Assembly: GCF_026262625.1 (NCBI RefSeq)
Contig: NZ_SHNN01000001.1
Coordinates: 682,001 to 746,000 of the forward strand
Reading direction: 5' to 3'
Source: Candidatus Litorirhabdus singularis
Lineage (GTDB): Bacteria > Pseudomonadota > Gammaproteobacteria > Pseudomonadales > Halieaceae
Length of the DNA stretch: 64,000 bases
Of the stretch, positions 11,870 through 36,443 are shown in pieces. The notes under the pieces were generated by a model. That model made no database searches, had not been told where the DNA came from, and saw only the letters and a program-made list of their open reading frames with translations. The first letter of the stretch is position 1; every line of letters starts with the position of its first letter. The position numbers were made by a program, and so were the translations under genes.

Positions 11870-12547
11870 CTAAACCTTGGCACCACGCTTTCGGCGATTC
11901 ATCCACAGGCTGACCAAACCCAACCCGAGCAGGGTTAGGGTTGCCGGCGCTGGTACCGACTCCGCATCGCGCACGAAGTATGCTCCCGCGCTTCCAAATG
12001 GTTCATCCAGCAGTGTTGTCTTATATGCCGTAGCGAAAACCGCCGCCTCAGCTCCCGGGTCAAGCAATTCGGTGATATTAACCTCCGGTGAAAACGCCGC
12101 AGGGGGTGTAAGACAACCAGCCGCGCTTAACGGGTCGCAATCACGGGATGACGTCCACCCGTAAAGATATCTGGTATCATCATCTTGGCTGATGGGTGTA
12201 AAATCGCCAAAAAAACGCGCGGCTAACCCTACGGCCGTGGCAAGCGAAAACCGATCAATCGAGGGAGCCGCACTGCTAAGGCCCGTGTACGTATTAAACA
12301 ACTCCTGCACCGTCTGCACTGATGCCCAAGACCAACCCTCAAGGGAGTAACCTTTAACTTCACTGGTCCTAGTACAGACGCCCTCAGGGCATTGTGTATT
12401 TATCGTGTTCCAGGTGACGCTTGTGAACAAATTAACCTGCGCCCACTCTTGATTGCCGACGACTACGGTGTCTGTTATGGGTATCGCATGGGCTGGTAAG
12501 ACAGAAGCTAAGATTGATAACAGGAAAGCGCAGCGCAGTAATTTCAT
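11870..12547 (-). CDS. PEP-CTERM sorting-domain protein
   Basis: Exported protein of 225 aa predicted to be handled by an exosortase. The signal peptide ends near AHA (residue 21). The C-terminus has the sorting signal VPAPATLTLLGLGLVSLW followed by NRRKR: VPxP motif, membrane helix, basic tail. The middle region (about 22-195) has no recognised domain and four cysteines, probably surface exposed. AAGGA stands nine bases before the ATG. It has its own sigma-54 promoter, upstream 17-bp elements and terminator. No exosortase gene is present in the window. Confidence 0.9.
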   Translation of the reverse strand: MKLLRCAFLLSILASVLPAHAIPITDTVVVGNQEWAQVNLFTSVTWNTINTQCPEGVCTRTSEVKGYSLEGWSWASVQTVQELFNTYTGLSSAAPSIDRFSLATAVGLAARFFGDFTPISQDDDTRYLYGWTSSRDCDPLSAAGCLTPPAAFSPEVNITELLDPGAEAAVFATAYKTTLLDEPFGSAGAYFVRDAESVPAPATLTLLGLGLVSLWMNRRKRGAKV

Positions 12548-12583: not shown

Positions 12584-12599
12584 GGCAAAATGTATGCCA
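12584..12599 (-). promoter_or_regulatory. Sigma-54 (-24/-12) promoter of PEP-CTERM gene 11870-12547
   Basis: On the minus strand TGGCATACATTTTGCC matches TGGCAC-N5-TTGC with exactly ten bases between the GG and GC dinucleotides. It lies 37 bp before the start codon. Confidence 0.75.
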
Positions 12600-12660
12600 A
12601 TAAAAAACTTAAATAAAAACATAGGCTTAGTACTTGTATACTAGACACCTAAATCGAAAG

Positions 12661-12677
12661 TGTAAAAAAACCTGACA
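12661..12677 (-). promoter_or_regulatory. 17-bp upstream element, proximal copy (PEP-CTERM gene 1)
   Basis: On the minus strand TGTCAGGTTTTTTTACA, an imperfect inverted repeat (TGTcAg...tTtACA). Its centre is about 72 bp upstream of the -24 GG. The same 17-bp pattern stands in front of the other two CTERM genes. Confidence 0.7.
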
Positions 12678-12819: not shown

Positions 12820-12836
12820 TGTAAAGTTTTCTGACA
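12820..12836 (-). promoter_or_regulatory. 17-bp upstream element, distal copy (PEP-CTERM gene 1)
   Basis: On the minus strand TGTCAGAAAACTTTACA, same 17-bp length and orientation as the proximal copy, 159 bp further upstream. Confidence 0.6.
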
Positions 12837-12975: not shown

Positions 12976-13518
12976 CTATGAATGCTGTTTGCGTCTTGAC
13001 CAGCCAAGGCCAGCGAGTCCCAAGCCGAATAGGGCGAGAGTAGCGGGCGCTGGAACTGGTGAGGAAGAATCAATTCGTATTCCATAGTTGTTCAATACGC
13101 CGATCCAGCCCACACCGTCAAAAGTTCCGGGACCGCCACTGACAGCCCCGACCCAGTAATTGGTCCCTGCAATAAAGGTATTTACGCCGGACAAGGCTTC
13201 CGTTCTAACTTCACTTACCTGAGGGCCGGTGTTAGGGGCATTGAGCAAAACAGACTCTATCAAAGTACCCTTAGTACCAGCGGTGTCGTTATACAGATTA
13301 AAAGTTATTGTAGGTGAGCCGAAACGAAGTAAGTTAGCAGCTAAGCTGGTTGCCGTACCGGTTCCTGTGGCGGTGAATTGATAGCTAATTTCATTGGTTC
13401 GAACTATGGTACCGGTGCTTTTAAAGAGGTCGATATTGTCGAATATGATTGTCGCGTTTGCCGCTCCAGCCCATACCGTAATCGCTAATATCGCCAGCAT
13501 TCTAGTAAATACTTTCAT
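12976..13518 (-). CDS. PEP-CTERM sorting-domain protein
   Basis: Exported 180-aa protein. The signal peptide ends at ANA (residue 22). The body is Thr/Gly/Asn/Ser-rich, beta-type, without recognised enzyme motifs. The sorting signal VPAPATLALFGLGLAGLG plus SRRKQHS is at the C-terminus. It is not in an operon with its same-strand neighbour: each has its own terminator and sigma-54 promoter. The body differs from the 225-aa protein, so the two are unlikely to be recent duplicates. Confidence 0.9.
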   Translation of the reverse strand: MKVFTRMLAILAITVWAGAANATIIFDNIDLFKSTGTIVRTNEISYQFTATGTGTATSLAANLLRFGSPTITFNLYNDTAGTKGTLIESVLLNAPNTGPQVSEVRTEALSGVNTFIAGTNYWVGAVSGGPGTFDGVGWIGVLNNYGIRIDSSSPVPAPATLALFGLGLAGLGWSRRKQHS

Positions 13519-13570
13519 GTTAGTTTCACCCTTAGACTTATATAATCTTTAATTCGTTATCTAAGGGCAA

Positions 13571-13585
13571 GCAATATTCATACCA
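13571..13585 (-). promoter_or_regulatory. Sigma-54 (-24/-12) promoter of PEP-CTERM gene 12976-13518
   Basis: On the minus strand TGGTATGAATATTGC, with ten bases between GG and GC; 53 bp before the start codon. Confidence 0.72.
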
Positions 13586-13638: not shown

Positions 13639-13655
13639 TGTAAAGAATCCTGACA
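13639..13655 (-). promoter_or_regulatory. 17-bp upstream element of PEP-CTERM gene 12976-13518
   Basis: On the minus strand TGTCAGGATTCTTTACA. The centre is about 63 bp upstream of the -24 GG. Confidence 0.7.
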
Positions 13656-31499: not shown

Positions 31500-34424
31500 T
31501 TATCCCGTCGAGGCCCCGCGCGCTCGATAGAGCGATGGATCTATTTTGGCTAACATCTGCGGCTGAGCAGATACCTCCAGGCCAAGAAATTCAACGAGCT
31601 CTGCCACTATTACCTCCGGGGCATGCATTAAACCCGCGTGAGATATCTGCAGGGTCGGCACCGATTGGCGCAGCAAGCATTCGAGAGCAAAACCGTTGTG
31701 GCGCTCAAACTGCTCACGCAGCTTATCCTCAGACTGGGCATCGGCAGACTGGCCCAGTCGGGTCAACATTGTTGTTTGCGAAGCGATCAATTCATCCAGC
31801 TCACGCTGCATAAAGATCACCTTGTACTGCCAGCCCTGCGGTAAGTGCGGTAACAACGGCGAGACCACTTTCAGCGACTTACCACAGGCATCCTGTAGCC
31901 AGTTGTTAGACTTGGCCAGCCCCTTGACCCGTTCCAGCTCGAGATAACCTCTGGGGTTATTTTCATCCGCTGCCCTGGCGGCATCTGTCAGCGCCGGTAG
32001 GCCCGCCGCCTGCAACATCTGCATCATCAGCGAAGTACCAGAGCGAGGCAGCCCTGAAACCACGTAGATAGTTTGATCACCGTCACTCGCAGGGCGCACC
32101 ACGCCATTGTCGAGATCACCCAATCTTGGCTCCAACTCAGACACTGGCATTTCCGGCAGTGCAGTAGCGTAGTCAATGGCAGAATAGTCCGGCAGCTGCG
32201 GTGCCACGCGCTCCTCGCGCCGCTGCCGCTGCAGTTGTTCTAAATCTCGCGCATGCTGTAAGTGGTCAGCCGCCAACCCACTGTCTGCCAGTGCCTCACT
32301 GTAAAGGCCAGCCAGTCGGCGGTGAGCCTGTGCATAATTGGGGTTCAGCTCCAGCGCCCTTGCATAGGCCTCGCGTGCCAAATCCCAGGCGCCGGCGCGT
32401 GCCTCACAGACACCCAACACATAATGGGCGGGCGCCAGATGATACTTGAGAGCCAACGCTTTGCCTGCCTCCTCCCGCGCACGCTCATACTGTTCCAGGC
32501 CGAGATAAGTCTGGGCCAGACCCAGCACTGCGCCGGAGTCATGCGGATCAAGTGCCAGCACTGCCTCGTACGCCGCTAGCGCTTTTCGATAACGGCGTAG
32601 CCGCCGATAACATTCGCCCAACTGATAGTGATAACCAGCAGCCCCAGACTGGCGTTCCCCGGCCAGCTTAAGTAACGCCAGTGCTGCTTTATCATCGCCA
32701 CGGGCAACCGCGACCCAGCCATCCATATAGTCCAAGGCACTCACATTGCCGCGGGCAATGGAGCGCAGCTTCTTGATCACGCGCTGTTCTTCTAAGGTGA
32801 ACAACTTCTCTGCCGGGCTCTGCTTATCGTGCTCAGCAACCGCACCAGTTGGCTCCCTGGCTTTGGCCAAATCATCCATCAGCGCCCGGTGCTGCTCGCG
32901 CCGCTCCCTGGCATCAGCCGCAATGTCCGTCAACCGCTCGCGGCAAACAGTTGCCGCCTGCAACCAGCGCTGCCGAATATCAGCCACTGTGTCAGCCAAT
33001 TCCTCGACATGACCCAAGGCCTGCAGACACATGGCCAACTGAATGCCAAACCGAAACTCCAGTGGCTGGGCCTCGTAAAGGGTAACCAGCAGAGGTATGG
33101 CGTCACCAAAGCGCTGCGCATTCATGAAAGAGCGCGCCAAATTGTAGTTATTTTCAGTGCGGGCCGCGGCGGCCGCTTGCGCAGCGTCATCTCCGGGGCG
33201 ATCGATATACCCCAAAGCCACCAGTTGCTCGAGCGCTTCACTTGCCTCCTCAACTGCCAAGCCTGTACCAGGCGGATGCTCACCGGACGCACCGGGCACA
33301 TCATCCCAGCTGGGCACGGTCGTTGCGCTGACCGATTGCTGATAGATATCCAGTAGCGGCCTGCCGTCCATATCCTCTCCCACCGGCAGATCAAAAAGGC
33401 TCAATATGGTAGGCGTCACATCCAGCAAATTGGCTCCATGAATCAACACATCCTTGCGGATGCCAGGACCATGCACCAAAAATACGCCATGTTCACGGTG
33501 CTCTACCGCTGGGCCCGCAGGCTCATTGGGCAGCACTCGCCGCCGCAGGTGATCCGGATGAAACCCATGATCAGACACCAGCATCACCGTGCAATCCGGG
33601 CCCGCCTGCTCACACAACGTGCCCAGCATCATGTCGTGAAAAATATAGGTGGTGGTCACCACACTCTGGTAGATGTCGAAATCTTCCTGCGTAACCCAGT
33701 CCAGCTTGGGCGGGTGATAACGCATAAACCCATGGCCCATATGGTCAATGGCGTCGAGGTAAACCGCGGTAAAATCCCAGGGCTCCGCCTGCATCAAGTG
33801 AGTCACGCAGTTCTGCAGCGACGCACATTCCGAAATATTCTTGATAATGCTTTGCAAACGACTATCGTTTTGCTGATCGATGCGCTCTCCCAGCGGCACA
33901 AAGGCGCGCACCTGTTCGGCGCTAATATCAGCCGGATGCACTCTCAGCCCGGCGACGGTATCCAGCATTTGCGGCGGATGCACATGTCGCGCGGCCAGCG
34001 GCCACTCGCGATCCTGGGGATTTGCCGATCCCGTGTCGGCATAGTGGTTACTGACCATCACACCGTTGATCGGCTCCACCGGGCTGCTGGGCCACCAACC
34101 AACAACATTACTGCGCAACTCATTCTGACTGAGAATATTCCAGATTGCCTTGGTGGTGCGTGCAAGACTGGTTACCGGCTGCACCCCCTTGTCATCGGGT
34201 AAAGGCTCGGTAAAGCCGAGCACGCCATGGTTGAACGGACGCTTGCCGGTCGCAATAGAAGTCCACAGCATCGGTGACAAAATAGGTGACAAGGTCATCA
34301 GGTCACCGCTGACACCACCTTCCACCAACCGCTGCAAGTTCGGCATCAGGCCGGCATCCATAAGCGGGCCAATCAGCTTCCAGTCGGCGGCATCCCAGCC
34401 CACCAATAATAGCTTTCTACGCAT
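31500..34424 (-). CDS. Alkaline-phosphatase-superfamily phosphodiesterase - TPR - sulfotransferase fusion
   Basis: 974-aa three-part protein without a signal peptide. About 1-365: type I phosphodiesterase/nucleotide pyrophosphatase fold (LLVGWDAADW with metal Asp, LDAIDHMGHG, LVSDHGFHPDH). About 430-750: low-complexity hinge, then tetratricopeptide repeats (ALDPHDSGAVLGLAQTYLG, ALELNPNYAQAHRRLAGLYS). About 795-965: sulfotransferase domain with PAPS loop VVSGLPRSGTSLMM. It may cleave and re-sulfate a phospho- or sulfo-conjugate, or act on surface glycans; this is inference. It is divergent from the VPLPA-CTERM gene, 340 bp away. Confidence 0.82.
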   Translation of the reverse strand: MRRKLLLVGWDAADWKLIGPLMDAGLMPNLQRLVEGGVSGDLMTLSPILSPMLWTSIATGKRPFNHGVLGFTEPLPDDKGVQPVTSLARTTKAIWNILSQNELRSNVVGWWPSSPVEPINGVMVSNHYADTGSANPQDREWPLAARHVHPPQMLDTVAGLRVHPADISAEQVRAFVPLGERIDQQNDSRLQSIIKNISECASLQNCVTHLMQAEPWDFTAVYLDAIDHMGHGFMRYHPPKLDWVTQEDFDIYQSVVTTTYIFHDMMLGTLCEQAGPDCTVMLVSDHGFHPDHLRRRVLPNEPAGPAVEHREHGVFLVHGPGIRKDVLIHGANLLDVTPTILSLFDLPVGEDMDGRPLLDIYQQSVSATTVPSWDDVPGASGEHPPGTGLAVEEASEALEQLVALGYIDRPGDDAAQAAAAARTENNYNLARSFMNAQRFGDAIPLLVTLYEAQPLEFRFGIQLAMCLQALGHVEELADTVADIRQRWLQAATVCRERLTDIAADARERREQHRALMDDLAKAREPTGAVAEHDKQSPAEKLFTLEEQRVIKKLRSIARGNVSALDYMDGWVAVARGDDKAALALLKLAGERQSGAAGYHYQLGECYRRLRRYRKALAAYEAVLALDPHDSGAVLGLAQTYLGLEQYERAREEAGKALALKYHLAPAHYVLGVCEARAGAWDLAREAYARALELNPNYAQAHRRLAGLYSEALADSGLAADHLQHARDLEQLQRQRREERVAPQLPDYSAIDYATALPEMPVSELEPRLGDLDNGVVRPASDGDQTIYVVSGLPRSGTSLMMQMLQAAGLPALTDAARAADENNPRGYLELERVKGLAKSNNWLQDACGKSLKVVSPLLPHLPQGWQYKVIFMQRELDELIASQTTMLTRLGQSADAQSEDKLREQFERHNGFALECLLRQSVPTLQISHAGLMHAPEVIVAELVEFLGLEVSAQPQMLAKIDPSLYRARGASTG

Positions 34425-34581
34425 TACTCACCTTGTCTCGTCGCTGGTCCAGCACCGCATAATACACGCACCTCAGCAGTCTACCCCAGCTGACGTGCGT
34501 GGTTAGTGAACCGGTTCAAACTATGAACGGCCAATACAGCAAAGGCTGTGTCAGCAACCACCGTCAACCGCGCCGACGGAG

Positions 34582-34598
34582 TGTCAGAAATTTTTACA
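34582..34598 (+). promoter_or_regulatory. 17-bp upstream element of the VPLPA-CTERM gene
   Basis: TGTCAGAAATTTTTACA, same length and pattern as the elements before the two PEP-CTERM genes and in the same orientation relative to its gene. Centre about 75 bp upstream of the -24 GG. Confidence 0.7.
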
Positions 34599-34662
34599 AT
34601 GGGGCGCTGGCAGCCGAGAGGCCTCCACCTATACGGTTGTATTTAAACGATAAATTTTTCGC

Positions 34663-34678
34663 TGGCGCGAGACTTGCA
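34663..34678 (+). promoter_or_regulatory. Sigma-54 (-24/-12) promoter of the VPLPA-CTERM gene
   Basis: TGGCGCGAGACTTGCA: ten bases between GG and GC, TTGCA at -12. The predicted start is near 34689, leaving a leader of about 76 nt. Confidence 0.78.
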
Positions 34679-34764
34679 TGACGTAGTAGCTTACGCTGCA
34701 GTGACTTACGATGTGGTGAATTACACTGCAATGACCGTAAGCGAGAGAGTGAGGAGTTTTAACC

Positions 34765-35376
34765 ATGAGCGATTATAAGGTCGGTACCGCTATTGCAACG
34801 TTTGGCGTTGCCACCGCAAGTCTATACATGACGCCATCGGCGGAAGCCGCTGTGATAGACCTCACACCCAATCCCGCCTCGATTACACAAGGCTCCACTA
34901 GCTCGGCCGGTACGCTGGTAGAATTGGGCATACCCGGCGGTAATGCGGACCTGTTCCAATACAATGGACTGATAGCAGGTGATGGAGACCCCATCAACTT
35001 CAATGCTTTCACTGCCGGTAGTTTCAGCATATCTGGCAGCAACTACGTGTATGACATAGCCGGCTTCAGGACAGTTTCTGTCGGCGGCACTGTCAGTGTC
35101 AACGACTCCTTTGCTATTTCCAGGGGCCGTCGCGAGGGAATTCGGTACTGGGGCTTTCTGACCCGCGACAATAATGTCGGCTGGTTCAAGGTTGATTTGG
35201 GCACCGATTCCGACAACACCATCCGCTACCTGGATGGTGCCTGGGAAGACACCGAAGACTCGATCAGGGTCGGTGAAGTGCCATTGCCAGCCAGTCTGCC
35301 ACTGCTGGCGTCCGCCTTGGGCTTACTGGCCGCGGGTGCAACTCGCAAACGCACCAAGACCGCCGCCAACGTCTAA
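34765..35376 (+). CDS. VPLPA-CTERM sorting-domain protein
   Basis: Exported 203-aa protein. The N-terminal export signal ends at AEA (about residue 28). The C-terminus VPLPASLPLLASALGLLAAG plus TRKRTK is the VPLPA variant of the exosortase sorting signal. The body is beta-rich (many Gly, Ser, Asp, Asn), suggesting a surface or matrix protein. GAGGAG lies before the ATG. Its 3' end overlaps that of the convergent dehydrogenase-like gene by four bases. Confidence 0.88.
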   Translation: MSDYKVGTAIATFGVATASLYMTPSAEAAVIDLTPNPASITQGSTSSAGTLVELGIPGGNADLFQYNGLIAGDGDPINFNAFTAGSFSISGSNYVYDIAGFRTVSVGGTVSVNDSFAISRGRREGIRYWGFLTRDNNVGWFKVDLGTDSDNTIRYLDGAWEDTEDSIRVGEVPLPASLPLLASALGLLAAGATRKRTKTAANV

Positions 35377-36443
35377 CGCAGTTGCCGTGCGCCGCGTATC
35401 GGGGGTAAATCTGACAACGTAACAATACCCGGCCGCGCACTGCAGACAGCCGGAATAGCATTGACGATCCAGTTGGCCGCCGTGGCATTACCGCCACCAG
35501 CAGCGCCAGGCTCAAAATGATCCTCAGCGTGCACGCTGACATGTAGATCCGGGTTGCCGCTAATCACCACCTGATGACAACCACGCCCCTCGGCAGGATA
35601 AGGCCAGTCCGGCGCACATTCGTCATCGATACGTGTGACGTGCTCTATCACATAGCGCACCTCAGTTGCGGTATGGCCAATAATCTCAAATCGGAACGCT
35701 CCCTGGGTGCCCTCTTCAAAGGTACCCATACCATCGACCTCAATAGTGCGCAGTAACGGCCTGCGTTCTACTTTGACCTCTACCTGCGTCACTGACTGGC
35801 CGAGTTCATCGCCCACCACGCGCAACATAGGTGCCCACACCATCTCTATAGCAAAGTCATGCAGCATCAGCGGGAGGTCTTCTAAGGAACCACCAAAGCC
35901 AATGACATCACGCACCACCTGGGGCTGGTCGTACAAGGCGTAATTGAAAATTTCCCGACAGCGAATTTCACTAATATCGGCCACTGCACCACTGAGCATA
36001 ATCGGCAGCGCATCCATCGCCCAACCAGGATCTATTCCCGACACCAACAGCGAGGCGCCACTGGCCGCGCAGGCAGACTCCACTGGAGCGGTAACTTCTG
36101 CCGCTACCGAGCCCGGATGAAGGAAAGAATAAAACGATGTCGAAACCACGTTGATGCCAGCCGCCAGACAGGCATTGAGGTCTGCCATAGCCTCCTCTGG
36201 ACGTATATCCGCGGTCGCCGTGTAAATAACGGCATCGGCACCAACAGCAATCGCCGCCTTATAATCATCGGTAGCCAGTACACCAGTCTCTGGCAAGCCG
36301 GCCAGCGTACCTGCATCTTTCCCTACCTTGGCGGGGTTGCTGACGATCACTGCCACCAGCTCCAACTCACTGTGCGATTGCACGGCACGCAACGCTGGCC
36401 TGCCCACGTTGCCTGTACCCCAAACGATCACTTTCAGACTCAT
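35373..36443 (-). CDS. NAD(P)-dependent 2,4-diaminopentanoate dehydrogenase-like protein (DapB-type Rossmann fold)
   Basis: 356 aa. The N-terminal Rossmann fold has VIVWGTGNVGRPALRAV; the central part SGIDPGWAMDALPIMLSG and the C-terminal domain match the dihydrodipicolinate reductase/DAP-dehydrogenase-like family, often annotated as amine dehydrogenase. The substrate is uncertain: relatives occur in many marine and actinobacterial catabolic clusters rather than ornithine fermentation. It is followed (upstream on the strand) by a DUF1653 gene 4 bp away. Confidence 0.75.
   Translation of the reverse strand: MSLKVIVWGTGNVGRPALRAVQSHSELELVAVIVSNPAKVGKDAGTLAGLPETGVLATDDYKAAIAVGADAVIYTATADIRPEEAMADLNACLAAGINVVSTSFYSFLHPGSVAAEVTAPVESACAASGASLLVSGIDPGWAMDALPIMLSGAVADISEIRCREIFNYALYDQPQVVRDVIGFGGSLEDLPLMLHDFAIEMVWAPMLRVVGDELGQSVTQVEVKVERRPLLRTIEVDGMGTFEEGTQGAFRFEIIGHTATEVRYVIEHVTRIDDECAPDWPYPAEGRGCHQVVISGNPDLHVSVHAEDHFEPGAAGGGNATAANWIVNAIPAVCSARPGIVTLSDLPPIRGARQLR

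Follow-up and report, generated by a model that had tools for sequence, protein, structure and literature searches.

A pair of conserved boxes upstream of proteobacterial PEP-CTERM genes is already on record (Haft et al. 2006; PMC1569441). It consists of motif 1, which is 17 nt long and ends in TTTACA, and of motif 2, a sigma-54 motif, with a spacer of 62.8 nt on average (SD 10.6) between them. PrsK and PrsR were named as the matching regulators (Haft et al. 2006), and the profile identifiers given for this system are TIGR02915 and TIGR02916. For Aquincola tertiaricarbonis, the dependence of the PEP-CTERM gene pepA on RpoN was shown by experiment (PMC9850573), and regulation by PrsK-PrsR is reported for Zoogloea (PMC9012009). 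Furthermore, DVUA0057, the PrsR homologue of Desulfovibrio, was enriched in DAP-chip at all five predicted PEP-CTERM targets (PMC3333781).

As far as the available parts of the Aquincola and Zoogloea accounts go (PMC9850573; PMC9012009), both systems resemble the one treated here in having a CTERM gene, a −24/−12 promoter and a predicted upstream enhancer. Unlike the genome studied here, they are presented in these parts as PEP-CTERM systems only, and neither VPLPA cargo nor a third promoter element was found there. The two-box switch and the role of PrsR at PEP-CTERM genes are already published; what is added here, on evidence that is sequence throughout, is that in one genome two kinds of tag which are processed by different enzymes probably stand under one switch.

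The focal promoter and its counterparts in the window

The window, a stretch of 64,000 nucleotides from Candidatus Litorirhabdus singularis, contains the focal gene and two linked PEP-CTERM genes (Table 1). Judged by their sequence, the focal boxes are the two motifs of Haft et al. (2006; PMC1569441), motif 1 being the predicted PrsR site and motif 2 the sigma-54 promoter. The pair as such was therefore already known, and that description together with the later work on PEP-CTERM genes makes the focal site one more instance of an established switch. The site criteria taken from Haft et al. (2006) were a motif 1 ending in TTTACA, a −24(GG)/−12(GC) motif 2 after 32–92 nt, and PrsK and PrsR encoded in the genome. 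The focal site shares with the sites of 2006 the 17-nt motif 1, the sigma-54 box at a spacer near 63 nt (here 64), the large intergenic region, the single-gene unit and the presence of PrsK/PrsR. It differs from them in that the switch of this genome also stands before VPLPA cargo of the XrtD type, that its spacer is locked to the helical turn and that it has a third, IHF-like element.

Both boxes had been claimed to precede the VPLPA-like gene in the same relative orientation, which holds at the coordinates of Table 1. The distance of 75 bp given in the sequence-only reading has to be corrected to a gap of 64 bp (34599–34662), or to 81 bp from start to start. About 340 bp of non-coding DNA lie upstream of the focal gene, from the start of a divergent ORF at 34424 to 34765; the next ORF (35373–36443) is convergent to it, and the focal gene forms a single-gene unit. 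Read directly, the focal copy of the IHF-like element agrees with the consensus at 6/9 positions, and its register is the standard one that is conserved in other pairs. All three CTERM genes of the window have the common architecture ascribed to them, namely a TGTCAGN5TTTACA box followed by a sigma-54 box 53–64 bp further on.

The focal protein carries the VPLPA-like C-terminus and is yet sub-threshold, since it reaches 19.4 bits with the TIGR03370 model in the protein scan (15.3 in the genome scan) at a cut-off of 25.35. The statement that two types of sorting signal are involved is borne out by the genome as a whole, where 23 VPLPA-CTERM matches exceed this cut-off, but has to be taken with caution for the focal protein itself.

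Table 1 Promoter elements and CTERM genes in the window
Feature	Sequence	Position	Strand	Remarks
Motif 1, predicted PrsR site	TGTCAGAAATTTTTACA	34582..34598	+	Exact TGTCAGN5TTTACA; fits motif 1 of Haft et al. 2006 (PMC1569441)
Third element, weakly IHF-like	TATACGGTTGTAT	34630..34642	+	31 nt after motif 1, 33 nt before sigma-54 box
Sigma-54 (−24/−12) promoter, predicted	TGGCGCGAGACTTGCA	34663..34678	+	11/12 specified positions of TGGCACGNNNNTTGCW
VPLPA-like CTERM surface protein, 203 aa	VPLPASLPLLASALGLLAAGATRKR	34765..35376	+	C-terminal sequence as given, plus short tail; signal peptide by inspection
PEP-CTERM protein, 180 aa		12976..13518	-	TIGR02595, 24.8 bits (protein scan), cut-off 16
Motif 1 of gene 12976-13518	TGTCAGGATTCTTTACA	13639..13655	-	Pattern match
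Sigma-54 box of gene 12976-13518	TGGTATGAATATTGCT	13570..13585	-	Spacer 53
PEP-CTERM protein, 225 aa		11870..12547	-	TIGR02595, 20.5 bits (protein scan), cut-off 16
Proximal motif 1 of gene 11870-12547	TGTCAGGTTTTTTTACA	12661..12677	-	Pattern match
Extra distal motif 1 upstream of gene 11870-12547	TGTCAGAAAACTTTACA	12820..12836	-	Pattern match
IHF-like element of gene 11870-12547	TAAGCCTATGTTT	12617..12629	-	7/9; 31 nt after motif 1, 30 nt before sigma-54 box
Sigma-54 box of gene 11870-12547	TGGCATACATTTTGCC	12584..12599	-	Spacer 61

Distribution of the box pair and the regulator genes

The genome to which the window belongs (G000) comprises 4.83 Mb in 20 contigs; all of it was searched by pattern, and matrix scans covered selected stretches. 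TGTCAGN5TTTACA occurs exactly at 36 sites, and none of the matches listed for the reversed pattern is exact, so that chance similarity of the boxes, already held to be unlikely in the sequence-only reading, is ruled out. With up to one mismatch there are 64 matches to the forward pattern versus 8 in all to the reversed one. Thirty of these 36 exact sites precede CTERM genes, and the clustering that a genome scan had been expected to reveal is found for CTERM genes of both classes.

For the scoring of CTERM candidates a pair matrix was used which leaves out positions 5–11. It places a box pair before 12 of the 15 PEP-class candidates, a set that contains two doubtful CTERM calls, and before 21 of the 31 VPLPA-class candidates, against none of 46 reversed controls. 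The positives score at least 28.9 bits, the remaining candidates at most 15.2 and the reversed sequences at most 13.9. One VPLPA gene (C18:70323) uses the promoter of its upstream gene jointly. No pair is present in the upstream DNA examined of the VPLPA-class genes C15:342765, C17:124018, C1:1650200, C1:1671482, C1:1839531 and C11:1310849, nor in that of C1:1876332, where the DNA examined stops short of the gene start. At least seven VPLPA candidates being boxless, the switch does not take in all cargo.

Genes other than those for CTERM proteins are also preceded by a box pair (C11:419553, C11:1008585 and C1:10304). An exosortase-associated acyltransferase (TIGR03694; C11:419369–420311, L109) has its own pair upstream with a spacer of 64, and a protein with a leukotoxin-LktA-family filamentous adhesin domain (NF012204; C11:1008585, L044) stands behind a complete pair. 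Upstream of a LEPR-XLL domain protein (C1:10304, L101) motif 1 has one mismatch, the sigma-54 box matches at 12/12 positions and the IHF-like element is exact; by these boxes the regulon may extend to surface proteins without a CTERM tag.

The proposed check for rpoN, prsK, prsR and xrt genes had a positive outcome. One protein each exceeds the cut-off for PrsR (715 bits, C11:449928–451256), PrsK (720 bits, C11:451307–453316) and RpoN (495 bits). XrtA is over its cut-off with 356 bits, and XrtD (TIGR04152), which is VPLPA-specific, is encoded at C11:131242 and reaches 555 bits against a curated cut-off of 400. A third exosortase-like protein of 746 aa (L003, C15:280233–280976) reaches the cut-off of no specific exosortase class; its N-terminal half, which is joined to the exosortase domain, resembles fatty acid hydroxylases and has a weak match to the ornithine lipid hydroxylase OlsE.

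Helical phasing and a third element

At NtrC-family promoters with IHF, activator site, bend site and promoter follow one another in fixed order, and a bend between the activator site and the sigma-54 box is the classical role of IHF there. The G000 pairs have an activator site, a bend-like site and a promoter in the same order. Unlike those promoters, the regulon as a whole is arranged in one-turn steps from one predicted activator: the spacers measure 43, 50–53, 61–66, 73–75 and 86 nt, i.e. they differ by one helical turn (43/53/63/74/86). At a period of 10.5 bp the mean resultant length is R = 0.81, versus a maximum of 0.55 among 5,000 jittered sets. The third element between the boxes, YAANNNNTTGATW, is the reverse complement of WATCAANNNNTTR, an IHF consensus in wide use of which nine positions were scored. 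A match of at least 8/9 is present in 21 of the 38 G000 spacers; shuffling gives 2.5 on average and 7 at most, and the reverse strand gives 3. The usual starting points of the element are 31 or 41–42 nt downstream of motif 1 and 22 or 32 nt ahead of the sigma-54 box.

Another 44 pairs, from other genera, were chosen by the two outer boxes only. They are phased with R = 0.76 at a phase nearly equal to that of G000, and 20 of their spacers contain a match of at least 8/9 (2.9 by shuffle; 9 on the reverse strand), mostly 32 nt before the sigma-54 box. The conserved core of the third element outside G000 looks nearer to YAANNNNNTGAWTT.

The locking of the spacer to the helical turn and the precisely spaced IHF-like element appear to be new. 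Helical phase and IHF are both absent from the main text of Haft et al. (2006; PMC1569441); in the open-access literature no paper was found that mentions XrtD, or that mentions IHF alongside PEP-CTERM, which does not in itself prove that the third element and the PrsR types are new.

PrsR types and boxes in other genomes

A class sample of 274 genomes served for comparison. The strict pair, a pattern too narrow for other lineages with differing boxes, is found in 17 of them, and PrsR is over the cut-off in 13 of these 17 versus 60 of the 257 others (p = 1e-5). XrtD exceeds its cut-off in 31 of the 274 genomes, 20 of which also have PrsR, and in eight XrtD genomes a PrsR gene is no more than about 11 kb away from that of XrtD. 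The eight PrsRs linked in this way, together with one further protein, G179_C165, make up one side of a branch with a support of 99/99 in the PrsR tree, in which the G000 protein groups with the XrtA-side proteins. Where PrsR is linked to XrtD, position 5 of the box is G in 17 of 21 VPLPA boxes versus 1 of 10 PEP boxes (p = 3e-4, a value from eight genomes that is inflated by kinship), the VPLPA form being TGTCG and the PEP form TGTCA/C. All 21 scored VPLPA boxes of G000 have A at this position (TGTCA). One residue of the helix-turn-helix also splits the clades, with K in 9/9 XrtD-side proteins and N or Q in 17/17 others, a contrast whose significance is likewise inflated by kinship among the genomes.

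Because the only PrsR of G000 is of the XrtA side and its VPLPA boxes all read TGTCA, one PrsR probably drives both classes here. A matrix trained on PEP boxes only finds pairs at 25 of 80 VPLPA genes of PrsR-positive genomes and in none of the 80 reversed sequences. The proposal of one regulator for PEP and VPLPA cargo thus draws support from the single PrsR, from the motif sites at both classes and from this recovery of VPLPA pairs elsewhere. In PrsR-negative genomes 1 of 15 VPLPA genes has a pair (p = 0.06), a difference that is only suggestive as few such genomes have VPLPA genes.

Among genomes with an XrtA-side PrsR only, clear VPLPA boxes exist in G000, G094, G088 and possibly G212; in seven others, of which few genes were sampled, no VPLPA box of like score and register was found. 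On this distribution the single-switch arrangement, real in G000, is lineage-specific. The sharing of one PrsR by both cargo classes is not general, for in many other XrtD genomes PrsR is of a distinct type that goes with another box, or the VPLPA genes sampled show no recognisable boxes. More than one PrsR occurs in G122, G237, G156 and G179 (L272–L276, L388, L399, L400): one copy is encoded close to XrtD or groups with the XrtD-linked proteins, and another groups with the XrtA-side proteins, which suggests dedicated regulators.

A probable common switch for two cargo classes

We consider it very probable that the focal boxes form a PrsR/sigma-54 promoter and that one PrsR of the XrtA type serves the cargo of XrtA (PEP-CTERM) as well as that of XrtD (VPLPA-CTERM), with an IHF-like bend. 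The histidine kinase PrsK would phosphorylate the NtrC-type activator PrsR, which would bind motif 1. The spacer would be folded by a DNA-bending protein, for which IHF is the likeliest candidate to judge from the third element, and the fold would let PrsR on the correct helical face touch the RpoN-RNA polymerase at the −24/−12 box, whereupon the promoter would open. As the single XrtA-side PrsR would act on the cargo of both exosortases, both sets of surface proteins should switch on together.

Motif 1 of the VPLPA genes could instead be the target of another sigma-54 activator, a paralogue of PrsR, and two parallel regulators would then use similar boxes. The genome does encode seven further proteins of the RpoN-activator type, which score 216–367 bits on the PrsR model and stay below its cut-off, and the XrtD loci of other genomes own a PrsR. 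However, a single protein exceeds the PrsR cut-off, the VPLPA and PEP boxes of G000 are alike in consensus and spacing register, and none of its VPLPA boxes has the TGTCG form of the XrtD-linked PrsR, which makes a second activator improbable. Still harder to credit is that the boxes merely came along with duplicated CTERM genes, by copying and not through selection or one regulator. The tandem CTERM paralogues C16:7507 and C16:9044 are indeed alike in their upstream DNA, but 36 of the 38 pairs remain distinct after similar spacers are collapsed and the phasing persists; moreover, the spacer lengths vary by whole helical turns and unrelated non-CTERM genes have the boxes as well. Plain inheritance with duplicated genes is mostly rejected on the number of distinct pairs.

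There is more room for doubt about the protein at the third element, which might be a conserved AT-rich contact for HU, Fis, the alpha subunits of RNA polymerase or PrsR itself. This is rather unlikely, though a good deal less so than the two foregoing readings. In its favour, more than half of the spacers outside G000 fall short of 8/9, and the core found there appears to depart towards YAANNNNNTGAWTT. Against it stand the exact copies of YAANNNNTTGATW, seven in G000 versus a shuffle mean of 0.12 and five elsewhere versus 0.2, and the established role of IHF in bending the DNA between activator site and sigma-54 box.

With one PrsR acting through an IHF-type bend as the preferred reading for G000, a wider history can be drawn, for and against which we see the balance as even. 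PrsR would have two ancient types, neighbours of XrtA and of XrtD respectively, which differ at position 5 of their boxes (TGTCA/C versus TGTCG) and perhaps also in a single helix-turn-helix residue (N/Q versus K). In the present lineage the XrtA-side type would have taken over the XrtD cargo via box changes, by which two sorting regulons merged, and most promoters of this kind would have a helically phased IHF-type bend.

Exosortase cargo builds the extracellular matrix of bacteria that form flocs and biofilms, but the link between cargo and sorting enzyme is little understood. With the phased third element the geometry of the enhancer becomes testable, and the two PrsR types, whose boxes differ at a single position, give direct access to the rewiring of activator specificity. 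One switch for two exosortase pathways predicts a coordinated display of surface proteins.
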